Below are positions 43,437-63,807 of a DNA stretch of 64,000 nucleotides, piece by piece. The first letter of the stretch is position 1. Every line of letters begins with the position of its first letter. Below the pieces are notes generated by a model, which worked only from the letters and a program-made list of their open reading frames with translations, was not told where the DNA came from and made no database searches. Location of the stretch: assembly GCF_017357865.1 (NCBI RefSeq), contig NZ_CP060096.1, positions 186,001 through 250,000 of the forward strand. The letters run 5' to 3'. Source of the stretch: Aceticella autotrophica (lineage in GTDB: Bacteria > Bacillota > Thermoanaerobacteria > Thermoanaerobacterales > Thermoanaerobacteraceae). The translations under genes were made by a program, and so were the position numbers.

Positions 43437-45361
43437 ATTATAGAGGAGAATTATGCCCAATAGGTGTTAAAGGAGAATTATACATAGGTGGAAGGGGACT
43501 GGCAGTTGGTTATTTAAATAATGAAATGCAAACTAATAATAGTTTTATAATGCATCCATTTTTAGGGAGGTTATATAAAACAGGAGATTATGGTATTTTA
43601 AATAAAAAAGGATATATTGAATTTTTAGGAAGAAAGGATAATCAAGTAAAGATTAACGGATATAGAGTAGAACTTGGTGAAATAGAAAATACAATTAAGA
43701 AAAACAAAAAAATAAAAGAAGCAGTTGTTAGTGTGAATTTATTAAGCAATGGAAGCAATCAAATTGTAGCGTATATAGAACCTAAGGTAGTAGAAAAAGA
43801 GAAATTTAATAAAGAAACATGGAAAAGCATACTTAATGAATTAAATGAGATGAGCTTAATTTTACCAAACGAAATAACACCCGAAGAATATTTAAAAACA
43901 ATTAATTTATTGGAAAAAGTTAGTACAGAAAGTATAGGTAACATACTTTATAGAATATTAGGTGGAAATAACAAAAATTCACTGCTAAACATAAAGGAAT
44001 TTATTAAAGAGTATTCTTTAAGAGAACATTATTTAAAATTAATTAGACGATGGTTAAAAGAATTAACAAAAGAAGGCTGGGTGACTGAGTTAGATAATGA
44101 TACTTATAAATTTAATAGAGATTTGCCAGAAGATATTAATAAAAAAGAATTTAATAGGGTATTGGAACTAAACCAATCTAAGTTTTTCAAGGATTCTTTA
44201 GCTTTTATAAAGTTATGTAATGAAAATGCTATTCAAATTTTAAAAGGCGAAGAAACAGCGTTAAATTTATTATTTCCAAAAGGGATGTGGAATATAGCAG
44301 AAAATATGTATAGATATAATCCAATAGCAAAATATTATAATACTTTAGTTGTTAGTGCTGTTTCAGCATATATTAAAAATAGCAAAGGTAGAATAAAAAT
44401 ATTAGAAGTTGGTGCAGGAACAGGTGGTACAAGTGATAGTGTTCTAAAAGCCATAAATGTTATAAAGAACAAAAAGATAACTTATACTTATACTGATTTA
44501 TCAACATTTTTTACTGATGAAGCAAAAAGAATATTTGATAGATATAATTTTATAAATTATGGTTTATATAATATTGATGAAGAACCACAAAGCCAGGGAT
44601 ACAATTTGGAAGAATATGACATAATAATCGCGGCTAATGTTTTGCACGATGCTAAAAATATTTATAAAACTATGAATAATTTAAAATCATTGTTAAAACC
44701 AAATGGAGTAGTTATTATATTAGAAGCAATAGAAAATACAAGATTACAAATGGTTAGTGTGGCATTTATTGATGGATTTTCTTGTTATAATGATTTTAGG
44801 TCAGAAAAGAATGAGCCATTGCTTTCATTAGAACAATGGAATCAAGTGCTATTAGATTGTAAATTTGAAGAAATTAAATATTATCCCCTTAAAGATAATA
44901 AAGCTATATTCTATGGACAAGCAGTTATTATTGGGAGAAAGGGTGAAAAAAAAGATTATTTATCGCTTAAAGATATTGATATAATTAAATATAATATTAA
45001 AAACGAATTGCCACAATATATGATACCTAAAATATTTATTCAATTAGAGAAAATGCAATTAAATAGTAACGGTAAAATCGATAGAAAAAATCTTCCCAAA
45101 TTAAAAGAGGATATATTATATTATGACGAAATAATAAAACCTAGAAACGAAACGGAAGAAATTATTTATGATGCTTGGAAAAAAGTATTAAAAATAGATA
45201 ATTTTGGTGTTAAGGATAATTTCTTTACATTAGGTGGAGATTCCTTAAAAGCTATAAAAGTTATCTCATTATTGAGTGATAAGTATAATGTCAGTATAAA
45301 GGAAATATTTAAATGTACAACTATTGAAGAAATAGCCCAATTAATTAAAAATAAGAATTAA
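43395..45361 (+). pseudogene. NRPS fragment 3: end of adenylation domain with inserted methyltransferase, then carrier protein
   Basis: The frame carries PLSNQTIYVLNYRGELCPIG, YKTGDYG and GRKDNQVKINGYRVELGEIE (adenylation motifs). A methyltransferase domain is inserted (about 43800-44930; SAM motif EVGAGTGGTSD), as in thiazoline-forming siderophore synthetases. It then continues with the last adenylation motif NSNGKIDRKNLP and a carrier domain with the phosphopantetheine serine in LGGDSLKAIKV. With fragments 1 and 2 it forms one module Cy-A(MT)-PCP. The frame is long and intact, so a partial protein could still be made, but without a working A domain. Confidence 0.85.
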
Positions 45362-47792: not shown

Positions 47793-47831
47793 AGAAGTCA
47801 GATAAATAGAGGTGAGAGGTCAGAAATTTAA
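47790..47831. repeat. Second copy of the interspersed element found at the array end
   Basis: GTAGAAGTCAGATAAATAGA and the following GGTGAGAGGTCAGAAATTTAA match 28486-28526 almost exactly. It lies between the dead IS110 and the CARF gene. Confidence 0.6.
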
Positions 47832-47847
47832 GAGAAGGAGGTATATC

Positions 47848-49065
47848 ATGGAAACAGTATTGATTTCATTTATAGGAAAGGGCAGGACATCTGGAAATGG
47901 AAGTGGTTATATTAAAACAAAATATAAATTTGATGATAAATATACAAGTGATGAAACTGCATTTTTTGGTTCTGCTCTTTTCACATATCTAAAGTCAAAA
48001 AAACATAATATTGATAAATGGTTTATATTTGGAACAAAACAATCATCATGGTCTGAATTAGTATCATTATTAGATTCTAACCAACGAGATAAGGAAGTTG
48101 ATGATTTATATTATAAGGTTTTTGAGGAAGAGCAAAAGGGAATTAGTGATAAAATATTAAACAAATGGCAAGAATGTCTTAATAAATATATTGAAAGCAT
48201 TTGCCTAATTAAGGTTGATCCTATGGATTTTAAAGTATATGCCAATATGCTTTTAGAATTGCTGCCGGAAGATGAGATAAGTATTATATTTGATATGACA
48301 CATGCATTTAGATATATGCCTGTATTAATGGCATTTTCACTTATGTATGTTAATTGCTTTAAAAATTTTAAAGGAATAGATGTTTATTATGGTGCTCTTG
48401 AAATGGGTACTAATGATGAAAAACCGGTTGTAAAAATAGATTTTATAAATCAATTATTTTCACTTACAACTTCATATGAGATATATAAAAATTCAGGTTA
48501 TTTTCCTTCATTGCTTAAAAATATGGGTGTAGACGATAGTGAAGAAACCTATTTTAAACTTGAGATGAATAGGAGTATCAAGAGGGAAATTGAGGATTTG
48601 ATAAAAAAAATTGAGGAAGAAGAATTGGAAAACGGGGAAGGTTATATAAAAAAAGCAGCTTCAAATCTAAAAAATGAATTTAATAAAATGAATAAATTAA
48701 AATATTTAGATGAAAGGATGTTAGAAAGGGCAAATTTCTTTTATGAGAAAAAACAGTATTTGATTGCTATGACTTTACTATATGAAGCAATATTAGTTAA
48801 AGCAGAAAGGGTTTTTGAAATTAAGAGAGGACAAAATGAAACAAGAAATGATCATAATTCCAGAGTAAAAAGAGTAAAAGAAGAGATAAAATATAAACTA
48901 AATAAAAATCTTAAAGATACATTTAAAAACTTAGAATATGCAAGAAATAGTGCTGTACATGGAGAAGAGGCAAAATGCACACAAAATATTCTTGAATGTA
49001 AAAATAAATTTGATGAATTATTTTCTAACTCAAAAAAAGTTTATAACTCAATACCAGAAAATTAA
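47848..49065 (+). CDS. CRISPR-ancillary CARF-HEPN protein (TM1812/Csx1-like)
   Basis: The 405-residue protein belongs to the TM1812 family. An N-terminal CARF domain, which senses cyclic oligoadenylate, includes METVLISFIGKGR and the DxTH motif in FDMTHAFRYMP (near residue 148). The C-terminal HEPN domain has the RNase motif RNSAVH (near residue 367). In type III systems such proteins become RNases when bound by the signal. No type III effector is in the window. The ATG at 47848 follows AAGGAGG; the upstream in-frame ATG at 47812 lies inside the interspersed element and is rejected. Confidence 0.87.
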   Translation: METVLISFIGKGRTSGNGSGYIKTKYKFDDKYTSDETAFFGSALFTYLKSKKHNIDKWFIFGTKQSSWSELVSLLDSNQRDKEVDDLYYKVFEEEQKGISDKILNKWQECLNKYIESICLIKVDPMDFKVYANMLLELLPEDEISIIFDMTHAFRYMPVLMAFSLMYVNCFKNFKGIDVYYGALEMGTNDEKPVVKIDFINQLFSLTTSYEIYKNSGYFPSLLKNMGVDDSEETYFKLEMNRSIKREIEDLIKKIEEEELENGEGYIKKAASNLKNEFNKMNKLKYLDERMLERANFFYEKKQYLIAMTLLYEAILVKAERVFEIKRGQNETRNDHNSRVKRVKEEIKYKLNKNLKDTFKNLEYARNSAVHGEEAKCTQNILECKNKFDELFSNSKKVYNSIPEN

Positions 49066-49072
49066 GATTGGG

Positions 49073-49177
49073 GACATATTATGACATATCAATATGTTAA
49101 TATAAAAATGGGGATTTTAAAGGATATAACATGAGAAATAATTCAAAATGCGGATGAACTTTAAAACAAACTGCTAA
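49073..49177 (+). pseudogene. Relict of a cas6 upstream region
   Basis: Bases 49073-49113 are 35/41 identical to the element in front of cas6 (14175-14215). At 49148 a short frame MRMNFKTNC and stop follows, similar in style to Cas6 N-termini. It probably marks a former second cas operon that was deleted; the coding part is too short to be sure. Confidence 0.4.
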
Positions 49178-49236
49178 CGAATGAGTTTTCACTTTATCTA
49201 AAAAAGAAGTCAAATAAAAAAGAGGAGGTTTTTTGT

Positions 49237-49584
49237 ATGAAAATAGCATCTGGTATTATTTCATTAGTGTTTGGTGCTATAATTTTATTACAATCAGTAT
49301 TAGTAGGGGTTGGAGGTATTGTTATTGGTGAAGAAGCAACATCTCAAGGTGGAAGTGTTGGAATAGTAGTTGCTTTACTTTTTATTATAGGAGGGGCATT
49401 TGCTTTTGGATTACCTAAGGTTGCGATGATTTTTTCTATTATAGCTTGTATATTTGCTATTGCAGTAGGTTCAACGACAACATTTAAAGATATGACTATT
49501 TGGGGTATTTTAGCTTTAATACTTGCTGTTATAGAATATTTTGGAGGACGCAAAAAGAAATCAGAGTTGCCTCCTACTTCGTAA
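49237..49584 (+). CDS. Small membrane protein, unknown function
   Basis: The 115-residue protein has three or four hydrophobic helices (about residues 5-30, 42-60, 62-78 and 87-104) and a short basic tail GGRKKKSELPPTS. A GAGGAGG ribosome site precedes the ATG. I do not recognise a named family. It lies between CRISPR-ancillary genes, with which a functional link is not shown. Confidence 0.7.
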   Translation: MKIASGIISLVFGAIILLQSVLVGVGGIVIGEEATSQGGSVGIVVALLFIIGGAFAFGLPKVAMIFSIIACIFAIAVGSTTTFKDMTIWGILALILAVIEYFGGRKKKSELPPTS

Positions 49585-49617
49585 AAGTGGGCAAGGTAAA
49601 AGGAGACTGGTTAGAGA

Positions 49618-50049
49618 ATGAGATATTTTAAGCCTTTAGCGAGTATTTTAGTTGCAATAATAATTTATGTAGTGTTCAGAAGTAAAAATTTAATATTGTA
49701 TAAATGGATAGGGGTATCTACAAATTCAATTTTAATATTATTTAGCAGAAATATACAAAATAATAATTATTTTTTGAACTGGATTATCTATTCGCTGCCT
49801 GACGGATTGTGGTTATACTCATTAACAACAATTATGATATTGATTTGGAGAAATGAAGCTTCCAAAATTAAATATTTATTTATATATGTAGGATTTACAA
49901 TAGCAATATCACATGAATTGGGACAATTTTTACATATTTTTAGAGGGACTTTTGATGTGGGTGATATTGTTGCGTATATTATGGCAATTCTTTTTGCCTT
50001 AATAACAATAAAATTTAATGGAGGGGAAAAACATGAACAAAAAATTTAA
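49618..50049 (+). CDS. VanZ-like membrane protein
   Basis: The 143-residue protein has about four membrane helices. The order SLPDGLWLYSL, ISHELGQFLHIFRGTFDVGDIVAY resembles VanZ-like proteins, which usually show an ExxQ and a GxxDxxD-type segment in this region. The 3' end overlaps the next gene by 17 bp. Function is unknown. Confidence 0.6.
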   Translation: MRYFKPLASILVAIIIYVVFRSKNLILYKWIGVSTNSILILFSRNIQNNNYFLNWIIYSLPDGLWLYSLTTIMILIWRNEASKIKYLFIYVGFTIAISHELGQFLHIFRGTFDVGDIVAYIMAILFALITIKFNGGEKHEQKI

Positions 50050-50572
50050 AGTATTTTTTTCAATCTTAATTTTATCAGTATTTTTGCTTTTGTTGATAGG
50101 CAGTGGTGAATCAAATTCACCAACTAATAGTACCCAAAGCAATAATACAACTCAAAATGAAACTAAAAAAGAGCAGGTTAAACAATTTTATAATGTAGGT
50201 GAAACTGCAAAATTTAATGGGGCAGAAATGACTGTTACAAAAGTAGAAAAATCAAATGGTTCCGAATATGACAAACCTAAAGATGGTATGGAATTTGTTA
50301 TTGTTACTGTGAAAATAAAAAATGCAGGGAAAGATAAACTGTCATATAATCCTTTATATTTTAAGATGCAAAATAGCAAAGGACAGATAACCGATGAAAC
50401 ATTTTCGACTATAAATCAAAATACTGCACTTCAGTCTGGTGACCTTGCAATAGGTGGAGAAGTAGAAGGAAGTATAATATTTGAAGAACCAATTAATGAC
50501 CCGGGTTTGGTATTACAATATCAAGATAATATATTCAATAAAGAAGCCAAGCTGCAATTCAAACTTCAATAG
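50033..50572 (+). CDS. Secreted DUF4352-type immunoglobulin-like protein
   Basis: The 179-residue protein has an N-terminal hydrophobic segment (residues 4-24), a Thr/Asn-rich linker and a beta-sandwich domain of DUF4352 type (YNVGETAKFNGAEMTVTKVE, GMEFVIVTVKIKNAGKD, LAIGGEVEGSIIFEEP). Relatives are usually lipoproteins, but the expected Cys is missing: the site reads LLIGSGESN. It is therefore either membrane-anchored by its helix or released. ATG at 50033 follows GGAGGGG; the ATG at 50018 lies before this ribosome site. Confidence 0.75.
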   Translation: MNKKFKVFFSILILSVFLLLLIGSGESNSPTNSTQSNNTTQNETKKEQVKQFYNVGETAKFNGAEMTVTKVEKSNGSEYDKPKDGMEFVIVTVKIKNAGKDKLSYNPLYFKMQNSKGQITDETFSTINQNTALQSGDLAIGGEVEGSIIFEEPINDPGLVLQYQDNIFNKEAKLQFKLQ

Positions 50573-50684
50573 TTTCTTTGTAAGTGAGCCTTCAAAGGTA
50601 AAACTTTGTGGGCTTCTTTTCAAGATTAATCTATGAAATCTAAGCACATAAAATATTATCAATTTTAGAAGGAATGAATATTAA

Positions 50685-51107
50685 ATGAAGCAAATTAATT
50701 CTAAAAAAATGTTTTTAATTTTTTCTCACCAACTTACAGATTCGCAAAAGCAGGATGCATGCTTGAATTTAAATATTAGTGAATTTATATATTTGCCTGA
50801 TAACTTACAGAGAAAATGGTCAGATATTTCTCCTTATGAAGAAACTTTGGCTTTATTTTTGCAGGACTTGCTTGAATGGCTCAAACTAAATGCTAAAAAA
50901 GATGATTATGTTCTTGTACAGGGGGATTTTGGAGCGGTTTTTTTAGTTGTGGATTTTTGCTTTAAAAATGAGCTTGTTCCTGTTTATTCTACTACAAAAA
51001 GACAAATTGTTAATGAGCATATAATTGGAAGAGATGTTCAGGTAAGCAGGATGTTTAGTCATGTGAGATTTAGAAAATATGAGAGGTGGTATAGAAATGA
51101 CTGTTAA
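50685..51107 (+). CDS. csx20: Csx20-type ring nuclease
   Basis: The 140-residue protein matches the Csx20 pattern as I know it: MFLIFSHQLTDSQKQDA at the start, EFIYLPDNLQRKWSDI, then DDYVLVQGDFGAVFLVVDFCF, LVPVYSTTKRQ and HVRFRKYE at the end. Csx20 proteins have been described as ring nucleases that degrade cyclic oligoadenylate and so switch off CARF effectors. The gene overlaps the following CARF-HEPN gene by 11 bp, so signal sensor and signal eraser are translationally coupled. Confidence 0.8.
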   Translation: MKQINSKKMFLIFSHQLTDSQKQDACLNLNISEFIYLPDNLQRKWSDISPYEETLALFLQDLLEWLKLNAKKDDYVLVQGDFGAVFLVVDFCFKNELVPVYSTTKRQIVNEHIIGRDVQVSRMFSHVRFRKYERWYRNDC

Positions 51108-52410
51108 GTTTTTTTCATTTCTTGGCACAGGTTCTTACACTAAATGTAGATATAAATTTGATGATATTGAAAGTAGCAGTAGTTGCTATGTGCAGGAAGC
51201 CCTTATTGCTATTTTATTAAAAAAGAAAGTTGATTTAAAAAGCATATTTATTTTTAAAACCAAAGAAGCTACTGATACAAATTGGAATAAAAATAAGAAA
51301 TATCCATATGAGGCAGGTTTAGATGGAGTTCTAAGTAAATATGAAAATAAGCTTAGTATAAACCCAGTGGATATACCCTCAGGACAAAATGAAGATGAGC
51401 TTTGGGAAATATTCGATAGCGTTTCACAACAGATTGATGAAGGTGATGAAATAATATTTGATATTACACATTCATTTCGCTCACTTCCAATATTGGCATT
51501 GATTATCTTGAATTATGCTAAATTCGTTAAAAAATGTGAAATAAGAGGTATATATTACGGGGCAATAGAGGCGGTTGGTAAAGAAATAAAAGATATTGAA
51601 GAGAAAGATATAGCTCCTATATTTGACTTAACACCTTTTGTAAGACTGCTTGACTGGACTGTGGGTATCGATCGCTTTATAGAAACAGGTGATGCAAGGC
51701 ATATAAATCATTTAATGAAATTGGGCACTAAAGAGTTGCACCTTAAAGGTATGAAGGATGAGAGAAATATATTAAGTGACTTTTCGCAAAAGTTAGAAAA
51801 ATATACAAAAAATGTTGCTACTTGCAGAGGTAAAGAAATCTCTAATGGTGGATTAAAGCTGAAGGATACACTTGAAGACGCTGTAAGTATAGCAGATAAG
51901 GCATATATTAAGCCGATGAAACCAGTAATAGATAGGTTAAACGATAGATTTAAAAATTTTGATAATGATGAAAATAAAAACATGCTTGAAATAGTCAAAT
52001 GGTGCAGTGAACATAACCAGATACAGCAAGGATTTACAATACTTGAAGAAGGCATTATAAGTTATCTATGTGATAAATTTAGATTTGATAAAAATATTAA
52101 AAAAGATCGTGAAATAATTGAACAAGCTATATATATTAAACATAAGTCATTGCAAAAAGATAAAGATAAATGGAGAGAAAAAGCTAAAGAAAATGAAGAT
52201 GCAATTAAAAATATTTTAAATAAATTTAACGAAGAAAACGACAAAAATTTAATAAAGGTATTATATGAAGAAATAAAGCCCATACGTAACGATATCAACC
52301 ATGCTGGATATAATGAGGGGTCTATGGATGCTGAAAAATTTGAAACAAAGCTTAAAAATCTTATTGATAAGGTTAGAAAATATATTAACCAAAATTATGA
52401 TGTGAGGTGA
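51097..52410 (+). CDS. CRISPR-ancillary CARF-HEPN protein (TM1812/Csx1-like), second
   Basis: The 437-residue protein has the same design as the one at 47848: start MTVKFFSFLGTGSYTKCRYKFDD, DxTH motif in FDITHSFRSLP (near residue 122), YYGAIEA, and a C-terminal HEPN motif RNDINH (near residue 397). It is clearly diverged in sequence from its neighbour. ATG at 51097 follows GAGAGGTGG; the in-frame ATG at 51079 is upstream of this site. It is coupled to the Csx20 gene. Confidence 0.87.
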   Translation: MTVKFFSFLGTGSYTKCRYKFDDIESSSSCYVQEALIAILLKKKVDLKSIFIFKTKEATDTNWNKNKKYPYEAGLDGVLSKYENKLSINPVDIPSGQNEDELWEIFDSVSQQIDEGDEIIFDITHSFRSLPILALIILNYAKFVKKCEIRGIYYGAIEAVGKEIKDIEEKDIAPIFDLTPFVRLLDWTVGIDRFIETGDARHINHLMKLGTKELHLKGMKDERNILSDFSQKLEKYTKNVATCRGKEISNGGLKLKDTLEDAVSIADKAYIKPMKPVIDRLNDRFKNFDNDENKNMLEIVKWCSEHNQIQQGFTILEEGIISYLCDKFRFDKNIKKDREIIEQAIYIKHKSLQKDKDKWREKAKENEDAIKNILNKFNEENDKNLIKVLYEEIKPIRNDINHAGYNEGSMDAEKFETKLKNLIDKVRKYINQNYDVR

Positions 52411-52552: not shown

Positions 52553-52580
52553 TTGACATAAAAATAAAAAGTGATAAAAT
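52553..52580 (+). promoter_or_regulatory. Promoter of the first B12-riboswitch transcript
   Basis: TTGACA (52553-52558), 16 bases, TAAAAT (52575-52580). It lies about 37 bases before the riboswitch and just outside the segment duplicated at 54447. Confidence 0.7.
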
Positions 52581-52617
52581 AAAATCAAACAGTTGATTAT
52601 AAAAACAAAATACGAAA

Positions 52618-52774
52618 ATAACAGGTGTTTAATATCAAACTTAAAAGAGAAGTCGGGTGAAATTCCCGCGCGGTCCCGCCGTTGTAATGAGGAGCTGCCT
52701 TATATTATGTCACTGGCGAAAGCTGGGAAGGCGTAAGGCGGTGATGAGTCTAAGCCAAAAGAACTGCCTGTTAT
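52618..52774 (+). promoter_or_regulatory. Cobalamin (B12) riboswitch, copy 1
   Basis: The closing stem pairs ATAACAGG (52618-52625) with CCTGTTAT (52767-52774). The core has GAAGTCGGGTGAAATTCCCGC, the GGTCCCGCC segment and CACTGGCGAAAGCTGGGAAGG in order, and the B12 box AAGCCAAAAGAACTGCCTG. All fit the cobalamin aptamer. It controls the S-layer protein gene at 52910. Confidence 0.92.
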
Positions 52775-52849
52775 TTATATCTACAGCTGCTCTACGATGG
52801 ATAGAGGCTGCTTAAGTATCAGGTAATACTTATATTTACTTGTGCCTGT

Positions 52850-52890
52850 AAAGCCTCTTAGCAAAAAAAGTTAAGAGGCTTTAAATTTTT
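52850..52890 (+). terminator. Riboswitch expression platform terminator, copy 1
   Basis: AAAGCCTCTTA pairs with TAAGAGGCTTT, followed by AAATTTTT. An upstream AGAGGCT (52803-52809) can instead pair with AGCCTCT of the first arm, offering an antiterminator. This fits transcription shut-off by B12. Confidence 0.8.
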
Positions 52891-52909
52891 AAACAAGGGG
52901 AGGAAGAAT

Positions 52910-54439
52910 ATGATTGAGATGATTGTAGGTAAAAAAAAGCACTTCTCAAAGGTATTGGCATTAATCATAGCAATGTTAATGCTGATACCAAGTATTGCAG
53001 CAACTGCTTTAGCTGCCCCGACAAATACAACAACAGCCAAACAATTTACAGACATCAAAGGACATTGGGCAGAAAAAGAAATAAATGACTGGGCATCAAA
53101 AGGTCTAATTGCCGGGTACGAAGATAACACCTTTAGACCGGACAACTCCGTAACAAGAGCAGAATTTGTAACATTTACAAACAGAGCTTTTAACTTAACA
53201 CAAACAGCAGACATAACCTTCAAAGACGTAAACAAAGCAGATTGGTTCTACAATGAAATACAAAAAGCAAAAGCTGCAAATATTGTTTCAGGTTATGATG
53301 ACAATACATTCAGACCAAACAACTTCATAACAAGAGAAGAAGCAGCAGCAATACTGACAAGGCTTTTAAAGCTTCAGCCAGTCACACAAGATGCATTAAA
53401 AGGATTTAAAGATGCATCAAACGTTTCAGACTGGGCTAAAGATGCTGTCAATACAGCCGTATACTATGGCTTAATAAAAGGCTATCCGGACAATACAATA
53501 GGACCGGATAAGCCAATAACAAGAGCAGAAACGGTTGTTATACTTAACAGGGCATTAAATTTGCAACAAACACCAACACCTTCATACTCTGTATTAACAA
53601 ATAAAGCAATTGATTATCTTCATAATCAATTCACAAAAAACGGTGCATCTGATGACTCTTATAATGGAATAAATTCTTATACAACTTATATCCTAATGCA
53701 ATCAGGTGTAGATGTAAATACATGGTTGTATAACGGTAAAACCCTTCCGGATGCTATAATCCAGATTGCCAATGGTCATATTGCCAATTCTAAAACACCG
53801 GCAAAGGCATTAGCACAGGATTATATAGCTATGAAGGCTTTGGGCAAAACTGATATAGCAGATAAGCTTGCAAATATTCTTAAAAATAAACAAACTGATA
53901 AAGGATTTGATTCAGGTGAACTATCAATTTATTCAAATATGTTTGCTTATGATATTATGTTAAGAGCCGGTTCATCTGATGTGCTTAATGCAGTTTATGC
54001 CAAGGATTATATTTTAAGCACACAATGCACGGTAGCCGGTGATGCTTATGGAAGTTGGGGAACTACATGGAGTGGAACATATTATGCCGATTTTATGGCT
54101 ACAGCAGAGGCGGTAAGGTCACTTCATTATTTAGACCCCAATGGAAATGATCCTAATATACAAAAAGCTATTAAGGATGGTTTTGATTGGATGAAAAAAC
54201 AGCAAAAAGCAGACGGCAGCTTTGTAGCTGGTATGGATGATAACCTAATAGATGCTTCAGAAATGATTTTGACCGCAAAGGTACTTGGTATTGACCCTGC
54301 TTCGATAAAGAGCAGTGACGGCAAAAGTCCGGTAGATTATTTGTTGAATAATGCAATTAATCCGGATGGCAGTTTCGGTACATGCGCTAATGCCATGGAT
54401 GCTACATGGGTGCTTTCTGCACTGAACAGCTTAAAATAG
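52910..54439 (+). CDS. S-layer-anchored cobalamin-binding-like protein (SLH plus alpha/alpha toroid)
   Basis: The 509-residue secreted protein has a signal peptide, three SLH domains (about residues 42-222) and a helical toroid domain (about 228-509): YSVLTNKAIDYLHNQF, ALAQDYIAMKALGKTD, GSWGTTWSGTYYADFMATAEAV, DWMKKQQKADGSF and NPDGSFGTCANAMDATWVLSAL. The repeated aromatic-Gly-x-Phe pattern resembles the alpha6-alpha6 barrel of transcobalamin and intrinsic factor, also shared with prenyltransferase and terpene-cyclase folds. The B12 riboswitch in front favours corrinoid binding. It lacks the beta-helix module of its relatives. Direct B12 contact residues cannot be read from sequence. Confidence 0.8.
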   Translation: MIEMIVGKKKHFSKVLALIIAMLMLIPSIAATALAAPTNTTTAKQFTDIKGHWAEKEINDWASKGLIAGYEDNTFRPDNSVTRAEFVTFTNRAFNLTQTADITFKDVNKADWFYNEIQKAKAANIVSGYDDNTFRPNNFITREEAAAILTRLLKLQPVTQDALKGFKDASNVSDWAKDAVNTAVYYGLIKGYPDNTIGPDKPITRAETVVILNRALNLQQTPTPSYSVLTNKAIDYLHNQFTKNGASDDSYNGINSYTTYILMQSGVDVNTWLYNGKTLPDAIIQIANGHIANSKTPAKALAQDYIAMKALGKTDIADKLANILKNKQTDKGFDSGELSIYSNMFAYDIMLRAGSSDVLNAVYAKDYILSTQCTVAGDAYGSWGTTWSGTYYADFMATAEAVRSLHYLDPNGNDPNIQKAIKDGFDWMKKQQKADGSFVAGMDDNLIDASEMILTAKVLGIDPASIKSSDGKSPVDYLLNNAINPDGSFGTCANAMDATWVLSALNSLK

Positions 54440-54479
54440 ATATTATTCAAACAGTTGATTATAAAAACAAAATACGAAA

Positions 54480-54636
54480 ATAACAGGTGTTTAATATCAA
54501 ACTTAAAAGAGAAGTCGGGTGAAATTCCCGCGCGGTCCCGCCGTTGTAATGAGGAGCTGCCTTATATTATGTCACTGGCGAAAGCTGGGAAGGCGTAAGG
54601 CGGTGATGAGTCTAAGCCAAAAGAACTGCCTGTTAT
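54480..54636 (+). promoter_or_regulatory. Cobalamin (B12) riboswitch, copy 2
   Basis: Same elements as copy 1, with closing stem, core and B12 box intact. It begins 41 bases after the stop of the upstream S-layer gene. Confidence 0.92.
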
Positions 54637-54710
54637 TTATATCTACAGCTGCTCTACGATGGATAGAGGCTGCTTAAGTATCAGGTAATCTTATATTTAC
54701 TTGTGCCTGT

Positions 54711-54751
54711 AAAGCCTCTTAGCAAAAAAAGTTAAGAGGCTTTAAATTTTT
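54711..54751 (+). terminator. Riboswitch expression platform terminator, copy 2
   Basis: Identical stem to copy 1, followed by AAATTTTT. It would also end transcripts coming from the gene at 52910. Confidence 0.8.
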
Positions 54752-54770
54752 AAACAAGGGGAGGAAGAAT

Positions 54771-57700
54771 ATGATTGAGATGCTTGTAGGTACAAAAAAG
54801 CGGTTTTCAAAGATATCAGCATTAATCATTGCGATATTAATGCTCATATCGAATATTGCAGCAACCGCTTTGGCTGCTCCGACAAATACAACAACAGCCA
54901 AACAATTTACAGACATCAAAGGACATTGGGCAGAAAAAGAAATAAATGACTGGATATCAAAAGGCTTAATTGCCGGCTACGAAGATAACACCTTTAGACC
55001 CGACAACCCTGTAACAAGAGCAGAATTCGTAACATTTACAGACAGAAGCAACAACCTTACACAGACAACAGACATAACCTTCAAAGACGTAAAATCGACA
55101 GACTGGTTTTATAAAGAAATACAAAAAGCAAAAGCTGCAAATATTGTTTCAGGATATGATGACAATACATTCAGACCAAACAACTTCATAACAAGAGAAG
55201 AAGCAGCAGCAATACTGACAAGGCTTTTAAAGCTTCAGCCAGTCACACAAGATGCATTAAAAGGCTTTAAAGATGCATCACAGGTTTCAGACTGGGCTAA
55301 AGATGCTGTCAATACAGCCGTATACTATGGCTTAATAAAAGGCTATCCGGACAATACAATAGGACCAGATAACTCAATAACAAGAGCAGAAACAGTTGTT
55401 ATACTTAACAGGGCATTAAAACTACAGCAAACACCAATACCATCACCAGCACAAACATCAACGATCTATGATAAAGCAGGTACTTATGGTCCACAAACAG
55501 GCATGAATACCATTAATGGAGATGTAACAATCAGCGCAGCCGATGTAACATTACAAAATACAACAATAAAAGGCAATCTCCTTATCAGCAAGGCTGTCGG
55601 AGATGGAAATGTAACACTTAAAAACGTCATCGTAGAAGGGACAACAACTGTAAATGGCGGCGGCGAACACAGCATAGTCTTAGAAGATTGCACATTAGCG
55701 CAAATAATAGTAAACAAAGATGACGGAAAAATAAGACTTGTTGCAAAAGGTGCAACAAAAGCAGATTCAGTAACATTACAATCGGGAGGAAAACTTGAAG
55801 AAGACAATGTAACAGGCAAAGGATTTACAGATGTAAGCATAGAAGGAACAAATGCACAAGTAACACTAATAGGCAATTATGACAATATAAAAGTCAATGC
55901 ACCGGGAGTATCAGTAGAAGTAGCAAGCGGAACGGTCAACAATTTAACCATAAGCGATACTGCAAAAGATTCAAAGATTAATATTGATGACGGTGTAAAA
56001 GTCAGCGTTCTTGCAGTAAATGCAGCCGCAGCAATAACAGGAAAAGGTACGATAGAAACAGCAAACATCAATGCAAATAATGTTACAATAGAGCAAAAAC
56101 CAATTAATACTAATATGGCATCAGGTATAACAGCCATAATAGGCGGTCAGTCAAGTACAGGTTCGACATCATCGAATACAGGAAATGGATGCACAGTATG
56201 GATTGCTGTTGTAGGAATGAATGGTGAGTTACTTTTCAGCCCAAAACAGGTTACTATAAAACAAGATAATAAATGGGGTATAACTGCCCTTGGTGCACTT
56301 GATGCTACAGGTCTTTCTTATGATTCTACAAGTTCTGGATGGGTTAATTCAATTGAAGGGCAAGCCAACAAAGACCTTAGCGGATGGATGTATTCAGTAA
56401 ACGGGCAAGTTCCTATGGTTTTGGCTAATAAATATAATGTTAATACTGGAGATAAAATTATATGGTGGTACAGCAAAAGTATGGCTCAGTTACCTCCTTC
56501 TTGGGATAGTCTGACATCGACGCCGACACCGACGCCAACACCAACACCGACGCCAACACCAACACCGACGCCAACACCAACACCGACGCCAACACCAACA
56601 CCGACGCCAACACCAACACCTTCATACTCTGTATTAACAAATAAAGCAATTGATTATCTTCATAATCAATTCACAAAAAACGGTGCATCCGATGATTCTT
56701 ATAATGGTATAAATGCTTATACAACTTATATCCTAATGCAATCAGGTGTAGATGTAAATACATGGGTTTATAATAATCAAACTCTTCCGGATGCTATAAT
56801 CCAGATTGCCAATGGTCATATTGCCAATTCTAAAACACCGGCAAAGGCATTAGCACAGGATTATATAGCTATGAAGGCTTTGGGCAAAACTGATATAGCA
56901 AATAACATTATAAATATTCTTAAAAACAGACAAACTGATAAGGGATTTGACAACAATCTTTATTCAGATATGCCTGCTTATGATATTATGTTAAGAGCCG
57001 GTTCATCTGATGTGCTTAATGCAGTTTATGCCAAGGATTATATTTTAAGCACACAATGCACGGTATCCGGTGATGCTTATGGAAGTTGGGGAACTACATG
57101 GAGTGGAACATATTATGCCGATTTTATGGCTACAGCAGAGGCGGTAAGGTCACTTCATTATTTAGACCCAAATGGAAATGATCCTAATATACAAAAAGCT
57201 ATTAAGGATGGTTTTGATTGGATGAAAAAACAGCAAAAAGCAGACGGCAGCTTTGTAGCTGGTATGGATGATAACCTAATAGATGCTTCAGAAATGATTT
57301 TGACCGCAAAGGTACTTGGTATTGACCCTGCTTCGATAAAGAGCAGTGGCAAAAGTCCGGTAGATTATTTGTTGAATAATGCAATTAATCCGGATGGCAG
57401 TTTCGGTACATGCGCTAATGCCATGGATGCTACATGGGTGCTTTCTGCACTGAACAGCTTGAATCAAATACCAACACCGACACCGACGCCAACACCAACG
57501 ACATATGGAATAACGGTAAATAATGCAGTATATGCAAATGTATATGCAGACAAGCAAGAAGCGGCAGCAGGAGATACAGTGACGATAAACATAAGCAATA
57601 TACAGCAAGGATATCTGTTCAAATCAATAACGGTAAAAGATAGCAGCGGGAGCCAAGTAGCAACAACAGAAGTAAAACCAGGACAGCAATATACCTTTAC

Positions 57701-59243
57701 AATGCCTGCAAGTCCAGTAACAGTATCAGTAACTTTGGAAATTGGAATCAAGGTTAATATTGCTGTTGTAGGAAAATATGGCGAGTTACTCTTTAAACCG
57801 CAGCAGGTTACTATAAAACAAGATAATAAATGGGGTATAACTGTCCTTGGTGCACTTGATGCTACAGGTCTTTCTTATGATTCTACAAGTTCTGGATGGG
57901 TTAATTCAATTGAGGGACAAGCCAACGAAGGCCTTAGCGGATGGATGTATTCGGTAAACGGTCAAGTTCCCATGGTTTTGGCTAATAAATATAATGTTAA
58001 TACTACAGATAAAATTATATGGTGGTACAGCAAAAGTATGGCTCAGCCGCCCCCTACATGGGATAGTCTGGAATCAATAATAGGCAAGATAGGTGGTATG
58101 GTCTGGAATGATGTGAATGGTAACGGCATTCTGGATACCGGAGAGAATGGAATACAAGGTGTAACAGTACAATTACAAGATGCAAATGCTAATTTGATTA
58201 AATCTGTAACAACGGATGCTGATGGTAAATATTTGTTTGATGGATTAGCAGATGCGAGTTATATTGTTGTTGTGATACCGCCAAATGCAATGGAAGAAAC
58301 ATATGACGCAGACGGTAATAAGGATAATCTGTCAATAGTAAATATTACTACAAATGGGTATGCTTATCTTGACCAGAATTTTGGGTATATAAGCTTATAC
58401 TCTGTATTAACAAATAAAGCAATTGATTATCTTCATAATCAATTCACAAAAAACGGTGCATCCGATGATTCTTATAATGGAATAAATGCTTATACAACTT
58501 ATATCCTAATGCAATCAGGTGTAGATGTAAATACATGGGTTTATAATAATCAAACCCTTCCGGATGCTATAATCCAGATTGCCAATGGTCATATTGCCAA
58601 TTCTAAAACACCGGCAAAGGCATTAGCACAGGATTATATAGCTATGAAGGCTTTGGGCAAAACTGATATAGCAAATAACATTATAAATATTCTTAAAAAC
58701 AGACAAACTGATAAGGGATTTGACAACAATCTTTATTCAGATATGCCTGCTTATGATATTATGTTAAGAGCTGGTTTATCTGATGTGCTTAATGCAGTTT
58801 ATGCCAAGGATTTTATTTTAAGTACACAGTGCAAAGTAGCCGGTGATGCATACGGAAGTTGGGGAACTACATGGAGTGGAACATATTATGCCGATTTTAT
58901 GTCTACAGCAGAGGCGGTAAGGTCACTTCATTATTTAGACCCAAATGGAACCGACCCTAATATACAAAAAGCCATTAATGATGGTTTTGATTGGATGAAA
59001 AAACAGCAAAAAGCAGATGGTAGCTTTGCAGCCGGTATGGATGATAACCTAATAGATGCTTCAGAAATGATTTTGACCGCAAAGGTACTGGGTATTGACC
59101 CTGCTTCGATAAAGAGCAGTGACGGCAAAAGCCCGGTAGATTATTTGTTGAATAAAGCAATTAATCCGGATGGCAGCTTCGGTACATGCGGTAATGCATG
59201 GGATGCTACATGGGCGCTTTCTGCACTGAACAGCTTAAAATAG
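54771..59243 (+). CDS. S-layer-anchored transcobalamin-like protein with two DUF4430 and two toroid domains
   Basis: The 1490-residue secreted protein has a signal peptide, three SLH domains, a beta-helix-like module (about residues 230-465), DUF4430 (about 471-582, VWIAVVGMNGELLF to WWYSKSMAQ), a Thr/Pro linker (582-617), toroid domain 1 (618-898), a repeat domain (910-985), a second DUF4430 (992-1101), an SdrD B-like domain (1103-1206, GMVWNDVNGNGILDTGENG) and toroid domain 2 (1208-1490). In animal transcobalamin and intrinsic factor the helical barrel and a DUF4430-like domain enclose B12 between them. Here both occur twice behind a B12 riboswitch. I infer corrinoid capture at the cell surface. 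Confidence 0.83.
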   Translation: MIEMLVGTKKRFSKISALIIAILMLISNIAATALAAPTNTTTAKQFTDIKGHWAEKEINDWISKGLIAGYEDNTFRPDNPVTRAEFVTFTDRSNNLTQTTDITFKDVKSTDWFYKEIQKAKAANIVSGYDDNTFRPNNFITREEAAAILTRLLKLQPVTQDALKGFKDASQVSDWAKDAVNTAVYYGLIKGYPDNTIGPDNSITRAETVVILNRALKLQQTPIPSPAQTSTIYDKAGTYGPQTGMNTINGDVTISAADVTLQNTTIKGNLLISKAVGDGNVTLKNVIVEGTTTVNGGGEHSIVLEDCTLAQIIVNKDDGKIRLVAKGATKADSVTLQSGGKLEEDNVTGKGFTDVSIEGTNAQVTLIGNYDNIKVNAPGVSVEVASGTVNNLTISDTAKDSKINIDDGVKVSVLAVNAAAAITGKGTIETANINANNVTIEQKPINTNMASGITAIIGGQSSTGSTSSNTGNGCTVWIAVVGMNGELLFSPKQVTIKQDNKWGITALGALDATGLSYDSTSSGWVNSIEGQANKDLSGWMYSVNGQVPMVLANKYNVNTGDKIIWWYSKSMAQLPPSWDSLTSTPTPTPTPTPTPTPTPTPTPTPTPTPTPTPTPTPSYSVLTNKAIDYLHNQFTKNGASDDSYNGINAYTTYILMQSGVDVNTWVYNNQTLPDAIIQIANGHIANSKTPAKALAQDYIAMKALGKTDIANNIINILKNRQTDKGFDNNLYSDMPAYDIMLRAGSSDVLNAVYAKDYILSTQCTVSGDAYGSWGTTWSGTYYADFMATAEAVRSLHYLDPNGNDPNIQKAIKDGFDWMKKQQKADGSFVAGMDDNLIDASEMILTAKVLGIDPASIKSSGKSPVDYLLNNAINPDGSFGTCANAMDATWVLSALNSLNQIPTPTPTPTPTTYGITVNNAVYANVYADKQEAAAGDTVTINISNIQQGYLFKSITVKDSSGSQVATTEVKPGQQYTFTMPASPVTVSVTLEIGIKVNIAVVGKYGELLFKPQQVTIKQDNKWGITVLGALDATGLSYDSTSSGWVNSIEGQANEGLSGWMYSVNGQVPMVLANKYNVNTTDKIIWWYSKSMAQPPPTWDSLESIIGKIGGMVWNDVNGNGILDTGENGIQGVTVQLQDANANLIKSVTTDADGKYLFDGLADASYIVVVIPPNAMEETYDADGNKDNLSIVNITTNGYAYLDQNFGYISLYSVLTNKAIDYLHNQFTKNGASDDSYNGINAYTTYILMQSGVDVNTWVYNNQTLPDAIIQIANGHIANSKTPAKALAQDYIAMKALGKTDIANNIINILKNRQTDKGFDNNLYSDMPAYDIMLRAGLSDVLNAVYAKDFILSTQCKVAGDAYGSWGTTWSGTYYADFMSTAEAVRSLHYLDPNGTDPNIQKAINDGFDWMKKQQKADGSFAAGMDDNLIDASEMILTAKVLGIDPASIKSSDGKSPVDYLLNKAINPDGSFGTCGNAWDATWALSALNSLK
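56516..56622 (+). repeat. Tandem Thr-Pro coding minisatellite
   Basis: About 18 Thr-Pro pairs are encoded by repeats of ACACCGACGCCAACACCA type. It forms a stiff surface linker and may vary in length by slippage. Confidence 0.85.
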
Positions 59244-59502
59244 CTTGATTTAACATCTTAATAAAAGATAAACAAGCTTTGAGAAAATAGTTTGTAAAGG
59301 GAGATATGAAATCATATCTCCCTTTTTATAATAAAATTTCAGGAAAAACATATAGTAAAATTTGACTTTATTTAATAACATGATATAATAAATTGTGTTA
59401 TTACATATAAATTCATCTTAAATAATATTCAGAAAATCTTTTAACCGTTACATTGATTTTTTCTTTAATACAGCAATAAACTTATTTCTTAAAGTATTTT
59501 AT
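59244..59502. other. Intergenic region with terminator
   Basis: Only the terminator at 59296-59328 is recognised; the rest is AT-rich without a frame. Confidence 0.5.
59296..59328 (+). terminator. Terminator after the transcobalamin-like gene
   Basis: AAAGGGAGATATGA pairs with TCATATCTCCCTTT, followed by T residues. Confidence 0.9.
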
Positions 59503-59601
59503 ATAATAAAGAATGAATTTTTGGGGGAAATCTTGTCTCCTGAAATTCAGATATATAAGGCAATAGTAATTGCCAAAAATTAAAATAAGGGGAGGAAGAA
59601 T
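59503..59601 (+). promoter_or_regulatory. Conserved S-layer gene leader, copy 3
   Basis: Matches 32434-32534 except that the first hairpin arm reads TTTTTGGGGG. The GGCAAT/ATTGCC hairpin and GGGGAGG are kept. Confidence 0.6.
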
Positions 59602-62600
59602 ATGACTGAGATGCTTGTAGGTACAAAAAAGCGGTTTTCAAAGATATCAGCATTAATCATTGCGATATTAATGCTCATATCGAATATTGCAGCAACCGCT
59701 TTGGCTGCTCCGACAAATACAACAACAGCCAAACAATTTACAGACATCAAAGGACATTGGGCAGAAAAAGAAATAAATGACTGGATATCAAAAGGCTTAA
59801 TTGCCGGCTACGAAGATAACACCTTTAGACCCGACAACTCCGTAACAAGAGCAGAATTCGTAACATTTACAGACAGAAGCAACAACCTTACACAGACAAC
59901 AGACATAACCTTCAAAGACGTAAAATCGACAGACTGGTTTTATAAAGAAATACAAAAAGCAAAAGCTGCAAATATTGTTTCAGGTTATGATGATAATACA
60001 TTTAGACCAAACAACTCCATAACAAGAGAAGAAGCAGCAGCAATACTGACAAGGCTTTTAAAACTTCAGCCTGTTACACAAGATGCATTAAAAGGCTTTA
60101 AAGATGCATCACAGTTTTCAGACTGGGCTAAAGATGCTGTCAATACAGCCGTATACTATGGCTTAATAAAAGGCTATCCGGACAATACAGTAGGACCGGA
60201 TAACCTAATAACAAGAGCAGAAACAGTTGTTATACTTAACAGGGCATTAAACTTGCAACAAACACCAGCACAAACATCAACGATCTATGATAAAGCAGGT
60301 ACTTATGGTCCACAAACAGGCATGAATACCATTAATGGAGATGTAACAATCAGCGCAGCTGCTGTAACATTACAAAATACAACAATAAAAGGCAATCTCC
60401 TTATCAGCAAGGCTGTCGGAGATGGAAATGTAACACTTAAAAACGTCATCGTAGAAGGGACAACAACAGTCAATGGCGGCGGCGAACACAGCATAGTATT
60501 AGAAGATTGCACATTAGTGCAAATAATAGTAAACAAAGATGACGGAAAAATAAGACTTGTTGCAAAAGGTGCAACAAAAGCAGATTCAGTAACATTACAA
60601 TCGGGAGGAAAACTTGAAGAAGACAATGTAACAGGCAAAGGATTTACAGATGTAAGCATAGAAGGAACAAATACACAAGTAACACTAAAAGGCAATTATG
60701 ACAATATAAAAGTCAATGCACCGGGAGTATCAGTAGAAGTAGCAAGCGGAACAGTCAACAATTTAACCGTAAGCGATACTGCAAAAGATTCAAAGATTAA
60801 TATTGATGACGGTGTAAAAGTCAGTGTTATAGCGGCAAATGCAGCCGCGGCAATAACAGGAAAAGGTACGATAGAAACAGCAAACATCAATGCAAATAAT
60901 GTTACAATAGAGCAAAAACCTACTAATACTAATATAGCATCAGGTATAACAGCCATAATAGGCGGACAATCAACTACAGGTTCGACATCATCGAATACCG
61001 GGAATAGCGGTGGTGGAAGCAGTTCAACACCAGTATCGAAACCGACAAAACTATATGATGTTAATTTACTCCCGAGCGGTCCAAATTATATAGAATTTTG
61101 TTTTACTAATATAAAGCGGGTTATGAGAATTTATTCTATAGCTAAACTGCCAAGCGAAGCAAAACCGAGTATAAATGAAATAATTAGCAAAAGCAAAGGT
61201 TATGATAATCTTAAACCGGAATATCAATCAGCCTTAGTTAGAATAGATGGTTTAAATCCTAATACTGAATATAAAATTTACTACATAGCAACAGATGAAC
61301 ATGGGAATTTAATATCCGATATTTCAGAATTTACTGCAAAGACAACGCCTGCAAGTGTAAGCATTACTCCTTCAAAAGTTTACAGCGAAGTTTATATGTC
61401 TGTATATGAAATAAAAGATTTCACATTTAATATAAGTCCATCAGATGCAATTGTAACGGCTATTTCTGATAATACAAATGTTGCATCGGTATCAACCGAT
61501 GGGAATACCTTGACAGTTGCGGGAAAATCAACAGGTATAGCAAATATTACTGTTACAGCAAAAAAGGACGGATATTTAGATGGACAGTATAATTTTAAGG
61601 TTAATGTAATAAATCTGCAATGGCAAGCTGCCAATGGAGGATTACCATCAAGCGATATATATACTTCACTTGCTATCGATCCTGAATCTACAAATACAAT
61701 GTATGTTGGGACATATAACGGCATATACAAAACAACGGATGGTGGTACTACTTGGTCCAAATTAAATGGCGGTTTACCATCAGAAGTACGAATTTGTTCA
61801 CTAGCGATCGATCCAAAAAGTCCTAATATCATATATACCGGAACAGCAAATAATAATGGCATTTATAAGACAACAGACGGCGGTGCAACCTGGAGCAAAA
61901 TAGGCAATGAATTGCCGCAAGTATTGCGTATTCTTTCTCTTGCAGTTACACCTGATGCAAGTGCTTTATATGCTACGGTATATAATAATGTATACAAAAC
62001 AACAGATGGAGGCATTACTTGGAGTAATGTAAGCACAGGATTGCCAACAGCATGGATTACATGCCTTGCAGTTGACCCCAATAATTCCAATACCATATAT
62101 GCCGGAACAGACCATGGTCATGGTATATACAAAACGATAGATGGTGGTGTTTCATGGAACAGTGTAAGTAATGGGCTGCCGCAATCATCAGACGGGGCAT
62201 CAATCACTTCTCTTGCAATTGACCCAAATAACACGAATATAATATATGCTGGAACAGATGATGGACATGGTATTTATAAAACTATGGACGGCGGTATTAC
62301 CTGGAAAAGTATAAATACAGGGTTACCAACAAAAAACTTACAGATTACTTCACTTGCGATTGATGCTGCAACGGGAACATTATGTGCCTCCGGTTTTAAT
62401 GGAGACAACTTAAATGATATATACAGAACAACAAATGGTGGTGTTAGTTGGAGCAGTATAGGCAATGGATTACCATTGACATTTAGGACGTATTCGCTTA
62501 CAATTGATTCTAAGACAGGAATTCTATACGCAGCAACAAGTAACGGAGTCTATAAATTAGCGACAAGGGGTAATGGAAATAATCAGTTAACGGTAATGAT

Positions 62601-63807
62601 TAATCCAGATGGGGACTATGAAGGAGTGAATATTGCAACAGATGAATCAAAAGATTTTACATTTGCTGCAAATCCATCAGATGCTGTAATAACTGCTTCG
62701 TCAGATAACGAAAATATTGCTGGTGTAACATCTGAAGGGAATAAAGTAACGGTTACAGGCAAGACGGTAGGTACTGCAAATATTGCTGTCACAGCGAAAA
62801 AAGAAGGATATGCAGATGGACGATACAATTTCAAGGTTAATATCGTTAATTTACAATGGCAAGCCGTAAATAATGGATTGTCGGAAATAGCCACAACCGC
62901 TATTCCACTTGTGGCTCATACTACTGAGAACACAATATATATCGCTGTAAAGGACAGCGTTTATAAAACAACAGACGGTGGTGCTACATGGATAAGTGTG
63001 GGCAGTGGGTTGCCGGCAGGAAAGCAGATTTATTCGCTTGCTATCGATCCTAAGACAAATACGCTTTATGCTGCAACAAATAATGTTATTGATAGTGTAT
63101 ACAAAATAACAGAGGGTGGAACCATTTGGATGAGCGTAGGCACTGGATTGCCGTCTGGGGTATGGATCCGTTATATTGCAATAGACCCCGAAACAGGTAC
63201 GGTATATGCTGGAACAGGTAATTACAGTGGCACACGGGGCGTATTTAAGATTGCAGCAGGGGATTCTACTTGGAGCAATATAAGCAGCGGTTTACCGACA
63301 ACAGGAGTTTTCTCACTTGCATTTAATTCCAAAACAAATGAAGTATATGCCGGAACGGGAAGTGGTATATATAAAACAACAGATGGCGGTGTTACATGGA
63401 TAACAATTAATAACGGATTGCCGTCAAACAAATATGTCAATTCAATAGAAATCAATCCTGTTACAGGTACGGTATTCGCAGGAATAAAAAATGGGACAAT
63501 ATATAATATTTATAAAACAACAGATGGTGGTGTCAATTGGAGCAACATAAGCGACGGTAAATTGCCATCAAATGTACTAAATGCTCCTTTAGCTATTGAT
63601 TATAAAAATGGGATATTGTATGCTGCAATAAGTAATAATGTTTATAAAACGAAAGATAGTGGTGAAACATGGATTAAAGTCAGCAATACAGGTTGGCCTA
63701 CAAATGTAACAACAATTGATTCACTGATAACCGATTGTAACGGCATAATATATGCTGCTACAAAAAGTCCAAAGGTTGGCATATATAAATTTAATACAAC
63801 ACCATAA
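59602..63807 (+). CDS. S-layer-anchored protein with two beta-propellers
   Basis: The 1401-residue secreted protein has a signal peptide, three SLH domains, a beta-helix-like module (about residues 225-460), a fibronectin-like domain (475-585) and an Ig/Big-like domain (585-670). Then comes a propeller of BNR/sortilin type (670-990), a second Big-like domain (990-1085) and a second propeller (1085-1401). Propeller repeats read like SLAIDPKSPNIIYTGTANNNGIYKTTDGGATWSKI, with a recurring IYKTTDGGxTW core. Such repeats occur in glycan-binding or glycan-cutting (GH74-like) and assembly proteins. Catalytic residues cannot be assigned. Its 5' 1.4 kb nearly repeats those of the other S-layer genes. 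Confidence 0.85.
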   Translation: MTEMLVGTKKRFSKISALIIAILMLISNIAATALAAPTNTTTAKQFTDIKGHWAEKEINDWISKGLIAGYEDNTFRPDNSVTRAEFVTFTDRSNNLTQTTDITFKDVKSTDWFYKEIQKAKAANIVSGYDDNTFRPNNSITREEAAAILTRLLKLQPVTQDALKGFKDASQFSDWAKDAVNTAVYYGLIKGYPDNTVGPDNLITRAETVVILNRALNLQQTPAQTSTIYDKAGTYGPQTGMNTINGDVTISAAAVTLQNTTIKGNLLISKAVGDGNVTLKNVIVEGTTTVNGGGEHSIVLEDCTLVQIIVNKDDGKIRLVAKGATKADSVTLQSGGKLEEDNVTGKGFTDVSIEGTNTQVTLKGNYDNIKVNAPGVSVEVASGTVNNLTVSDTAKDSKINIDDGVKVSVIAANAAAAITGKGTIETANINANNVTIEQKPTNTNIASGITAIIGGQSTTGSTSSNTGNSGGGSSSTPVSKPTKLYDVNLLPSGPNYIEFCFTNIKRVMRIYSIAKLPSEAKPSINEIISKSKGYDNLKPEYQSALVRIDGLNPNTEYKIYYIATDEHGNLISDISEFTAKTTPASVSITPSKVYSEVYMSVYEIKDFTFNISPSDAIVTAISDNTNVASVSTDGNTLTVAGKSTGIANITVTAKKDGYLDGQYNFKVNVINLQWQAANGGLPSSDIYTSLAIDPESTNTMYVGTYNGIYKTTDGGTTWSKLNGGLPSEVRICSLAIDPKSPNIIYTGTANNNGIYKTTDGGATWSKIGNELPQVLRILSLAVTPDASALYATVYNNVYKTTDGGITWSNVSTGLPTAWITCLAVDPNNSNTIYAGTDHGHGIYKTIDGGVSWNSVSNGLPQSSDGASITSLAIDPNNTNIIYAGTDDGHGIYKTMDGGITWKSINTGLPTKNLQITSLAIDAATGTLCASGFNGDNLNDIYRTTNGGVSWSSIGNGLPLTFRTYSLTIDSKTGILYAATSNGVYKLATRGNGNNQLTVMINPDGDYEGVNIATDESKDFTFAANPSDAVITASSDNENIAGVTSEGNKVTVTGKTVGTANIAVTAKKEGYADGRYNFKVNIVNLQWQAVNNGLSEIATTAIPLVAHTTENTIYIAVKDSVYKTTDGGATWISVGSGLPAGKQIYSLAIDPKTNTLYAATNNVIDSVYKITEGGTIWMSVGTGLPSGVWIRYIAIDPETGTVYAGTGNYSGTRGVFKIAAGDSTWSNISSGLPTTGVFSLAFNSKTNEVYAGTGSGIYKTTDGGVTWITINNGLPSNKYVNSIEINPVTGTVFAGIKNGTIYNIYKTTDGGVNWSNISDGKLPSNVLNAPLAIDYKNGILYAAISNNVYKTKDSGETWIKVSNTGWPTNVTTIDSLITDCNGIIYAATKSPKVGIYKFNTTP

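Follow-up and report, generated by a model that had tools for sequence, protein, structure and literature searches.

We analysed a 64,000-nucleotide window of the Aceticella autotrophica genome (positions 186001–250000 of a single 2.27-Mb contig) and focus here on two neighbouring open reading frames, ORF1 and ORF2, that encode surface-layer homology (SLH) proteins with alpha/alpha toroids and lie behind cobalamin riboswitches (Table 1; coordinates are those of the window). According to Rfam, the window holds exactly two cobalamin aptamers, one ahead of each toroid gene, and a search with the riboswitch model recovered just these two copies even at E 10. Both aptamers are full length (model positions 1–189), scoring 105 bits against the RF00174 gathering score of 31.5, and in both genes the expression platform—a strong terminator hairpin, with a folding energy of -19.6 kcal/mol alone and z -6.1, followed by a T-run—sits 5' of the start codon. 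The two leaders differ by a single base across approximately 330 nt. The original prediction, made by a model from the letters alone, that each gene carries a full riboswitch and terminator thus stands, and, as far as can be judged from this standard pairing of aptamer and terminator, low intracellular cobalamin would allow read-through into both genes.

The translations of ORF1 and ORF2 begin with a hydrophobic leader that represents an export signal, and the genome encodes CsaB, the wall-polymer pyruvyl transferase required for SLH anchoring (TIGR03609, 1.6e-96). Pfam places two DUF4430 domains in ORF2 (7.9e-30) and, in the same scan, none in ORF1. The toroids score below the Pfam cut-off for squalene-hopene cyclase repeats, and structure prediction gives a confident alpha/alpha toroid; together, these results support the earlier description of SLH proteins with toroids, the larger of which also carries DUF4430. 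The three toroids share 93–96% nucleotide identity and are recent duplicates, and T1 is 45% identical at the amino acid level to a riboswitch-headed homologue in a related genome (G049). A further claim, that ORF2 contains two transcobalamin-like domain pairs, held only in part—two toroids and two DUF4430 domains are indeed present, but they are interleaved as DUF4430–toroid–DUF4430–toroid, with the contiguous toroid-to-beta pair occurring only once (amino acids 619–1102).

Table 1. Riboswitches, genes and domains at the ORF1–ORF2 locus (aa, amino acids; nt, nucleotide; pLDDT, predicted local distance difference test)
Feature	Position	Strand	Details
Cobalamin riboswitch aptamer 1	52606..52785	+	RF00174, 105 bits, E 3e-25
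Terminator hairpin + T-run, riboswitch 1	52849..52890	+	14-bp stem, -19.6 kcal/mol alone, z -6.1
ORF1, 509 aa	52910..54439	+	Signal peptide, 3 SLH motifs (PF00395), one alpha/alpha toroid
Toroid T1, ORF1	53588..54436	+	nt identity 95.5% to T2, 92.9% to T3
Cobalamin riboswitch aptamer 2	54468..54647	+	RF00174, 105 bits, E 3e-25
Terminator hairpin + T-run, riboswitch 2	54710..54751	+	14-bp stem
ORF2, 1490 aa	54771..59243	+	Signal peptide, SLH x3, spacer, DUF4430, toroid, Flg_new_2, DUF4430, SdrD_B, toroid
SLH wall-anchor region, ORF2	54891..55448	+	PF00395, 8.7e-51
DUF4430 domain 1, ORF2	56199..56512	+	PF14478; 89% aa identity to DUF4430 domain 2
Toroid T2, ORF2	56625..57470	+	AlphaFold2 pLDDT mostly >90 here; Z 18-22 to toroid folds
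DUF4430 domain 2, ORF2, transcobalamin-type beta-grasp	57744..58076	+	Model pLDDT 96.7
SdrD_B-like spacer domain, ORF2	58086..58331	+	PF17210, 2.4e-22
Toroid T3, ORF2	58401..59240	+	91% aa identity to T1

The arrangement recurs in other genomes. Five relatives found by a toroid search have a toroid–DUF4430–SLH gene directly 3' of a cobalamin riboswitch, followed by a second exported DUF4430-type protein and then by energy-coupling factor (ECF) transporter genes, as far as the examined stretch extends; the operon order in related genomes is surface gene, DUF4430 protein, EcfT, EcfAA, and EcfS. Among 80 species loci chosen by DUF4430 motif pattern, and thus informative about context rather than frequency, 34 encode a protein in which toroid, DUF4430, and SLH regions are combined. 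The riboswitch is present in 32 of these; in the other two, the distance from the gene start to the end of the contig is just 77 and 260 bases. A less biased sample was provided by 81 genomes of the phylum, 26 with DUF4430 and 78 with cobalamin riboswitches. Here, 27 of 33 DUF4430 clusters (in 22 of the 26 genomes) have a same-strand cobalamin riboswitch, which lies inside the cluster in one of them and no more than 10 kb upstream in the others, against a chance expectation of about 0.6% per cluster; given that the sampled genomes are related, a binomial P for this linkage is only indicative. Because so many clusters carry a same-strand riboswitch, the association between DUF4430 and cobalamin riboswitches is not due to chance, and the search for the pair behind B12 riboswitches elsewhere in the phylum, proposed with the original prediction, bore it out.

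The combination of toroid and DUF4430 had also been likened to the architecture of animal transcobalamin and intrinsic factor. An AlphaFold2 model of the contiguous pair in ORF2, built from 28 sequences, reached a mean pLDDT of 87 and a predicted template modelling score (pTM) of 0.62. When it was searched against the PDB with Foldseek, the top ten places all went to haptocorrin, transcobalamin, and intrinsic factor (E 1.6e-8 to 2.0e-6), in alignments of approximately 500 columns that cover both domains. When aligned alone with VIA-align, the DUF4430 domain matched haptocorrin best (Z 13.4, root-mean-square deviation 1.8 over 91 residues), with transcobalamin and intrinsic factor at Z 11.6–12.2, the bacterial structure 3u7z at Z 12.3, and the next beta-grasp proteins at no more than 7.3; both searches favour the proposed architecture. 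The DUF4430 model also has a beta-hairpin after the helix (strands 45–47 and 53–56), matching the site after the beta-grasp helix at which Burroughs et al. (2007, PMC1796856) placed the transcobalamin-specific, B12-contacting hairpin.

We then considered the regulatory setting in this genome. Seven cobalamin riboswitches occur genome-wide. Of the five outside the window, one lies ahead of the cob/cbi biosynthesis operon and another ahead of cbiMNQO; a third precedes a gene for a substrate-binding protein close to cobN, a fourth an ECF S component accompanied by a radical SAM gene, and the last a DUF4430–EcfT–EcfAA–EcfS operon (locus L012). The regulon is thus one of corrinoid and cobalt supply. 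DUF4430 is found at just two loci, the window and L012, both behind cobalamin riboswitches; the transporter here stands apart from the surface genes, under a B12 riboswitch of its own. The S component of L012 is homologous to CbrT (PDB 6FNP, chain 6fnp_A; 7.5e-8 as a single sequence and 7.8e-25 as a 17-sequence profile), which imports cobalamin and cobinamide in proteoliposomes (PMC5997447). At another of these loci (L010:2749-4311), after the riboswitch-controlled ECF S component comes a HydE/BioB-like radical SAM protein that scores under its family cut-off, a pair possibly concerned with lower-ligand transport and synthesis. The DUF4430–ECF genes of L012 are followed by a gene for an SBBP/PQQ-like beta-propeller protein, either membrane-anchored or secreted (L012:7592-8797), possibly, by analogy, a second corrinoid-capture protein, since BtuG is also a surface B12 binder. 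The BtuG structure, PDB 3DSM, is likewise a beta-propeller.

Riboswitch control, a transcobalamin-type fold, phylum-wide linkage, and a conserved ECF operon with a CbrT-like S component all agree, and we consider it likely that ORF1 and ORF2 are wall-anchored corrinoid-capture proteins that, at times of B12 shortage, feed an ECF importer of the CbrT type. Under this model, low cobalamin would let transcription of ORF1 and ORF2 proceed, and the proteins would leave the cell and be anchored to the wall through their SLH motifs. The toroid–DUF4430 unit, whose architecture the structure searches support, would then trap cobalamin or related corrinoids between its domains, as transcobalamin does, and the cargo would be passed on, probably with the membrane-anchored DUF4430 protein of L012 as intermediary, to the ECF importer with the CbrT-like S component. 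A broader proposal, toward which we lean only slightly, is that these genes exemplify a widespread Gram-positive route of corrinoid import, wholly under cobalamin riboswitch control, in which a multi-toroid wall protein delivers to a membrane-anchored DUF4430 relay and thence to a dedicated ECF-CbrT. Such a route would be a living bacterial equivalent of animal transcobalamin and possibly its origin.

Several observations weigh against the capture model. The relative placement of toroid and DUF4430 in the predicted structure is unreliable, given the pTM of 0.62. PF01122, the animal Cobalamin_bind family, gives no match in the window proteins up to E 1, and in a search with the DUF4430 sequence profile, intrinsic factor and transcobalamin (ranks 2–4 in the PDB) come up only at E ~0.3, for which reason the likeness was rested on structure searches. 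Taken alone, the toroid is nearer to terpene cyclases than to B12 carriers in both sequence and structure (VIA-align Z 21.6, root-mean-square deviation 3.2 over 251 residues, versus Z 17.7–18.8). DUF4430 also occurs apart from B12 control: the control genome of Lactococcus lactis has the domain and no cobalamin riboswitch match, and riboswitches are missing from archaeal DUF4430–toroid loci in the 80-locus set, where methanogens and Archaeoglobi encode the two proteins adjacent or fused (L056, L059-L061, L066, L067, L069, L076). The fold alone is thus no proof of ligand. Lastly, the host carries a cob/cbi synthesis operon, so that scavenging is not obviously essential; the benefit may lie in salvage, cheaper supply, or precursor recovery. 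We also observed an AcsV-like corrinoid activation gene (NF040756, partial length; L013:3743-4666) just past the window end, soon after cas1, which fits a need for corrinoids.

The best-surviving alternative, though an unlikely one, is that these surface proteins belong to a cobalt or corrinoid-precursor economy, binding cobalt or a precursor such as cobinamide instead of finished B12 and supplying synthesis or salvage. The placement of the cob/cbi operon, cobN, and cbiMNQO under cobalamin riboswitches would suit such a role, as would the uptake of cobinamide by CbrT (PMC5997447) and the title of 3u7z, the nearest solved bacterial DUF4430-like structure, as a "putative metal binding protein." Against this, the S component linked to them belongs to the CbrT rather than the CbiM type, and carriers of whole corrinoids have this two-domain architecture.

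We regard as very improbable a second alternative, in which the toroids are enzymes—terpene-cyclase or carbohydrate-active barrels at the cell surface that just happen to fall within the B12 regulon. By both sequence and structure the toroid alone finds its best matches among squalene-hopene and drimenyl cyclases, and sugar epimerases and mannanases score high as well; a five-sequence profile of the toroid–DUF4430 unit retrieved mainly squalene cyclases from the PDB, and transcobalamin was not among the matches of a toroid-only class profile up to E 1. The toroid fold is common, however, and a match to it says little about function. The original prediction had named a structure closer to terpene cyclases, with an active site and no B12 pocket, as evidence against itself: the closeness was indeed found for the toroid alone, but the DxDD motif of class II terpene cyclases is missing from the window toroids, which have DFMA or DFMS at that site, the catalytic middle Asp being replaced by Met. 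On this ground we rejected the terpene-cyclase reading of these toroids; in addition, the proteins are exported, SLH-anchored, fused to DUF4430, and, in relatives, encoded beside a B12 transporter.

The window itself offers an internal control. Its five SLH genes (starting at 28711, 32535, 52910, 54771, and 59602) open with near-identical signal and SLH sequence, and the three without riboswitches differ in cargo: one has a transglutaminase-like domain, one a BNR/sortilin-like propeller, and one nothing recognised beyond SLH. Only the genes with toroid cargo have riboswitches, and the riboswitch therefore tracks the cargo and not the SLH module. The near-identical leaders and differing cargo might suggest that these proteins have a structural S-layer or adhesin role and came under B12 control only by accident, when the riboswitch was copied along with a modular SLH gene family, but we rejected this highly doubtful reading on the strength of the internal control and the 27/33 linkage, which is maintained across many families of the phylum. 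The SLH paralogues form a modular family of surface proteins that has spread through recent duplication. Those at 28711-32133, 32535-35411, and 59602-63807 (with no recognised, transglutaminase-like, and BNR/sortilin-like propeller cargo) have a common leader and a common chitinase-like spacer.

Other neighbouring features include CRISPR-associated genes, among which the three SLH genes at 52910-63807 sit, with two TIGR02221/DxTHG proteins upstream (47812-52410) and Cas4 and Cas1b directly downstream (L013:1883-3369); a CRISPR-DR2 array lies at 26329-28427. By eye, adjacent frames at 41555-45361 look like fragments of a non-ribosomal peptide synthetase, with condensation, adenylation, methyltransferase, and carrier-like parts apparently split over three ORFs; a thioesterase-like gene comes next.

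The literature searched offered no experimental account of how scarce corrinoids are gathered across the thick Gram-positive wall; bacteria with an outer membrane use BtuG and BtuB. The proteins described here resemble BtuG of Bacteroides (PMC6143338) in that surface B12 capture would take place ahead of a transporter, at B12-transport loci; they differ from it in fold and anchor, BtuG being a lipoprotein (PDB 3DSM) that works with the outer-membrane BtuB. The importer is comparable to ECF-CbrT of Lactobacillus delbrueckii (PDB 6FNP), to which the S component of the L012 operon is homologous; unlike in L. delbrueckii, that component has its own EcfT and EcfAA genes beside it. Term searches of the CbrT paper (PMC5997447) returned neither a surface capture protein nor a DUF4430 partner. 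RUMGNA_00854 of Ruminococcus gnavus (PDB 3u7z) has the same fold as the DUF4430 domain of ORF2 (Z 12.3), but in the crystal it is a single small domain (96–97 residues), has no toroid, and is titled as putatively metal binding.

The closest precedent is the work of Burroughs, Balaji, Iyer, and Aravind (2007, PMC1796856), who described bacterial toroid–SLBB surface proteins with CbiO/CbiQ neighbours, predicted that they scavenge B12, and proposed their transfer to animals. The core idea—that surface proteins with toroid and beta-grasp domains scavenge B12 and gave animals transcobalamin—was therefore already published. As in those proteins, an exported toroid is here joined to a transcobalamin-type beta-grasp domain. 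The 2007 systems often include a second such protein together with CbiO/CbiQ genes (PMC1796856), and such an operon with CbiQ/CbiO-like (ECF) genes is seen in the relatives, whereas here the ECF genes occupy a separate riboswitch locus. The bacteria of that study usually lacked key enzymes of B12 synthesis (PMC1796856), unlike this genome with its cob/cbi operon. The terms riboswitch, SLH, and S-layer do not occur in its text (PMC1796856), and in the open-licence literature searched, where subscription papers may have been missed, we found no experimental follow-up, just that prediction and a same-year companion review. What is new here are the riboswitch statistics, the SLH anchor, the CbrT link, and a split locus in a genome with a B12-synthesis operon, and the evidence for the capture idea is stronger than that found in print. 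In particular, riboswitch linkage and CbrT homology turn the domain-based prediction of 2007 into a specific, easily tested transport system.

With animal transcobalamin, intrinsic factor, and haptocorrin, the unit at amino acids 619–1102 shares an N-terminal toroid and a C-terminal beta domain, both matched by models. It departs from the animal carriers in the absence of a PF01122 match and in an extra Flg_new_2 between toroid and beta domain, and the proteins differ from them in having several toroids and a wall anchor. The same linkage and homology strengthen the view that the architecture of animal B12 carriers was inherited from bacterial surface proteins of this kind.

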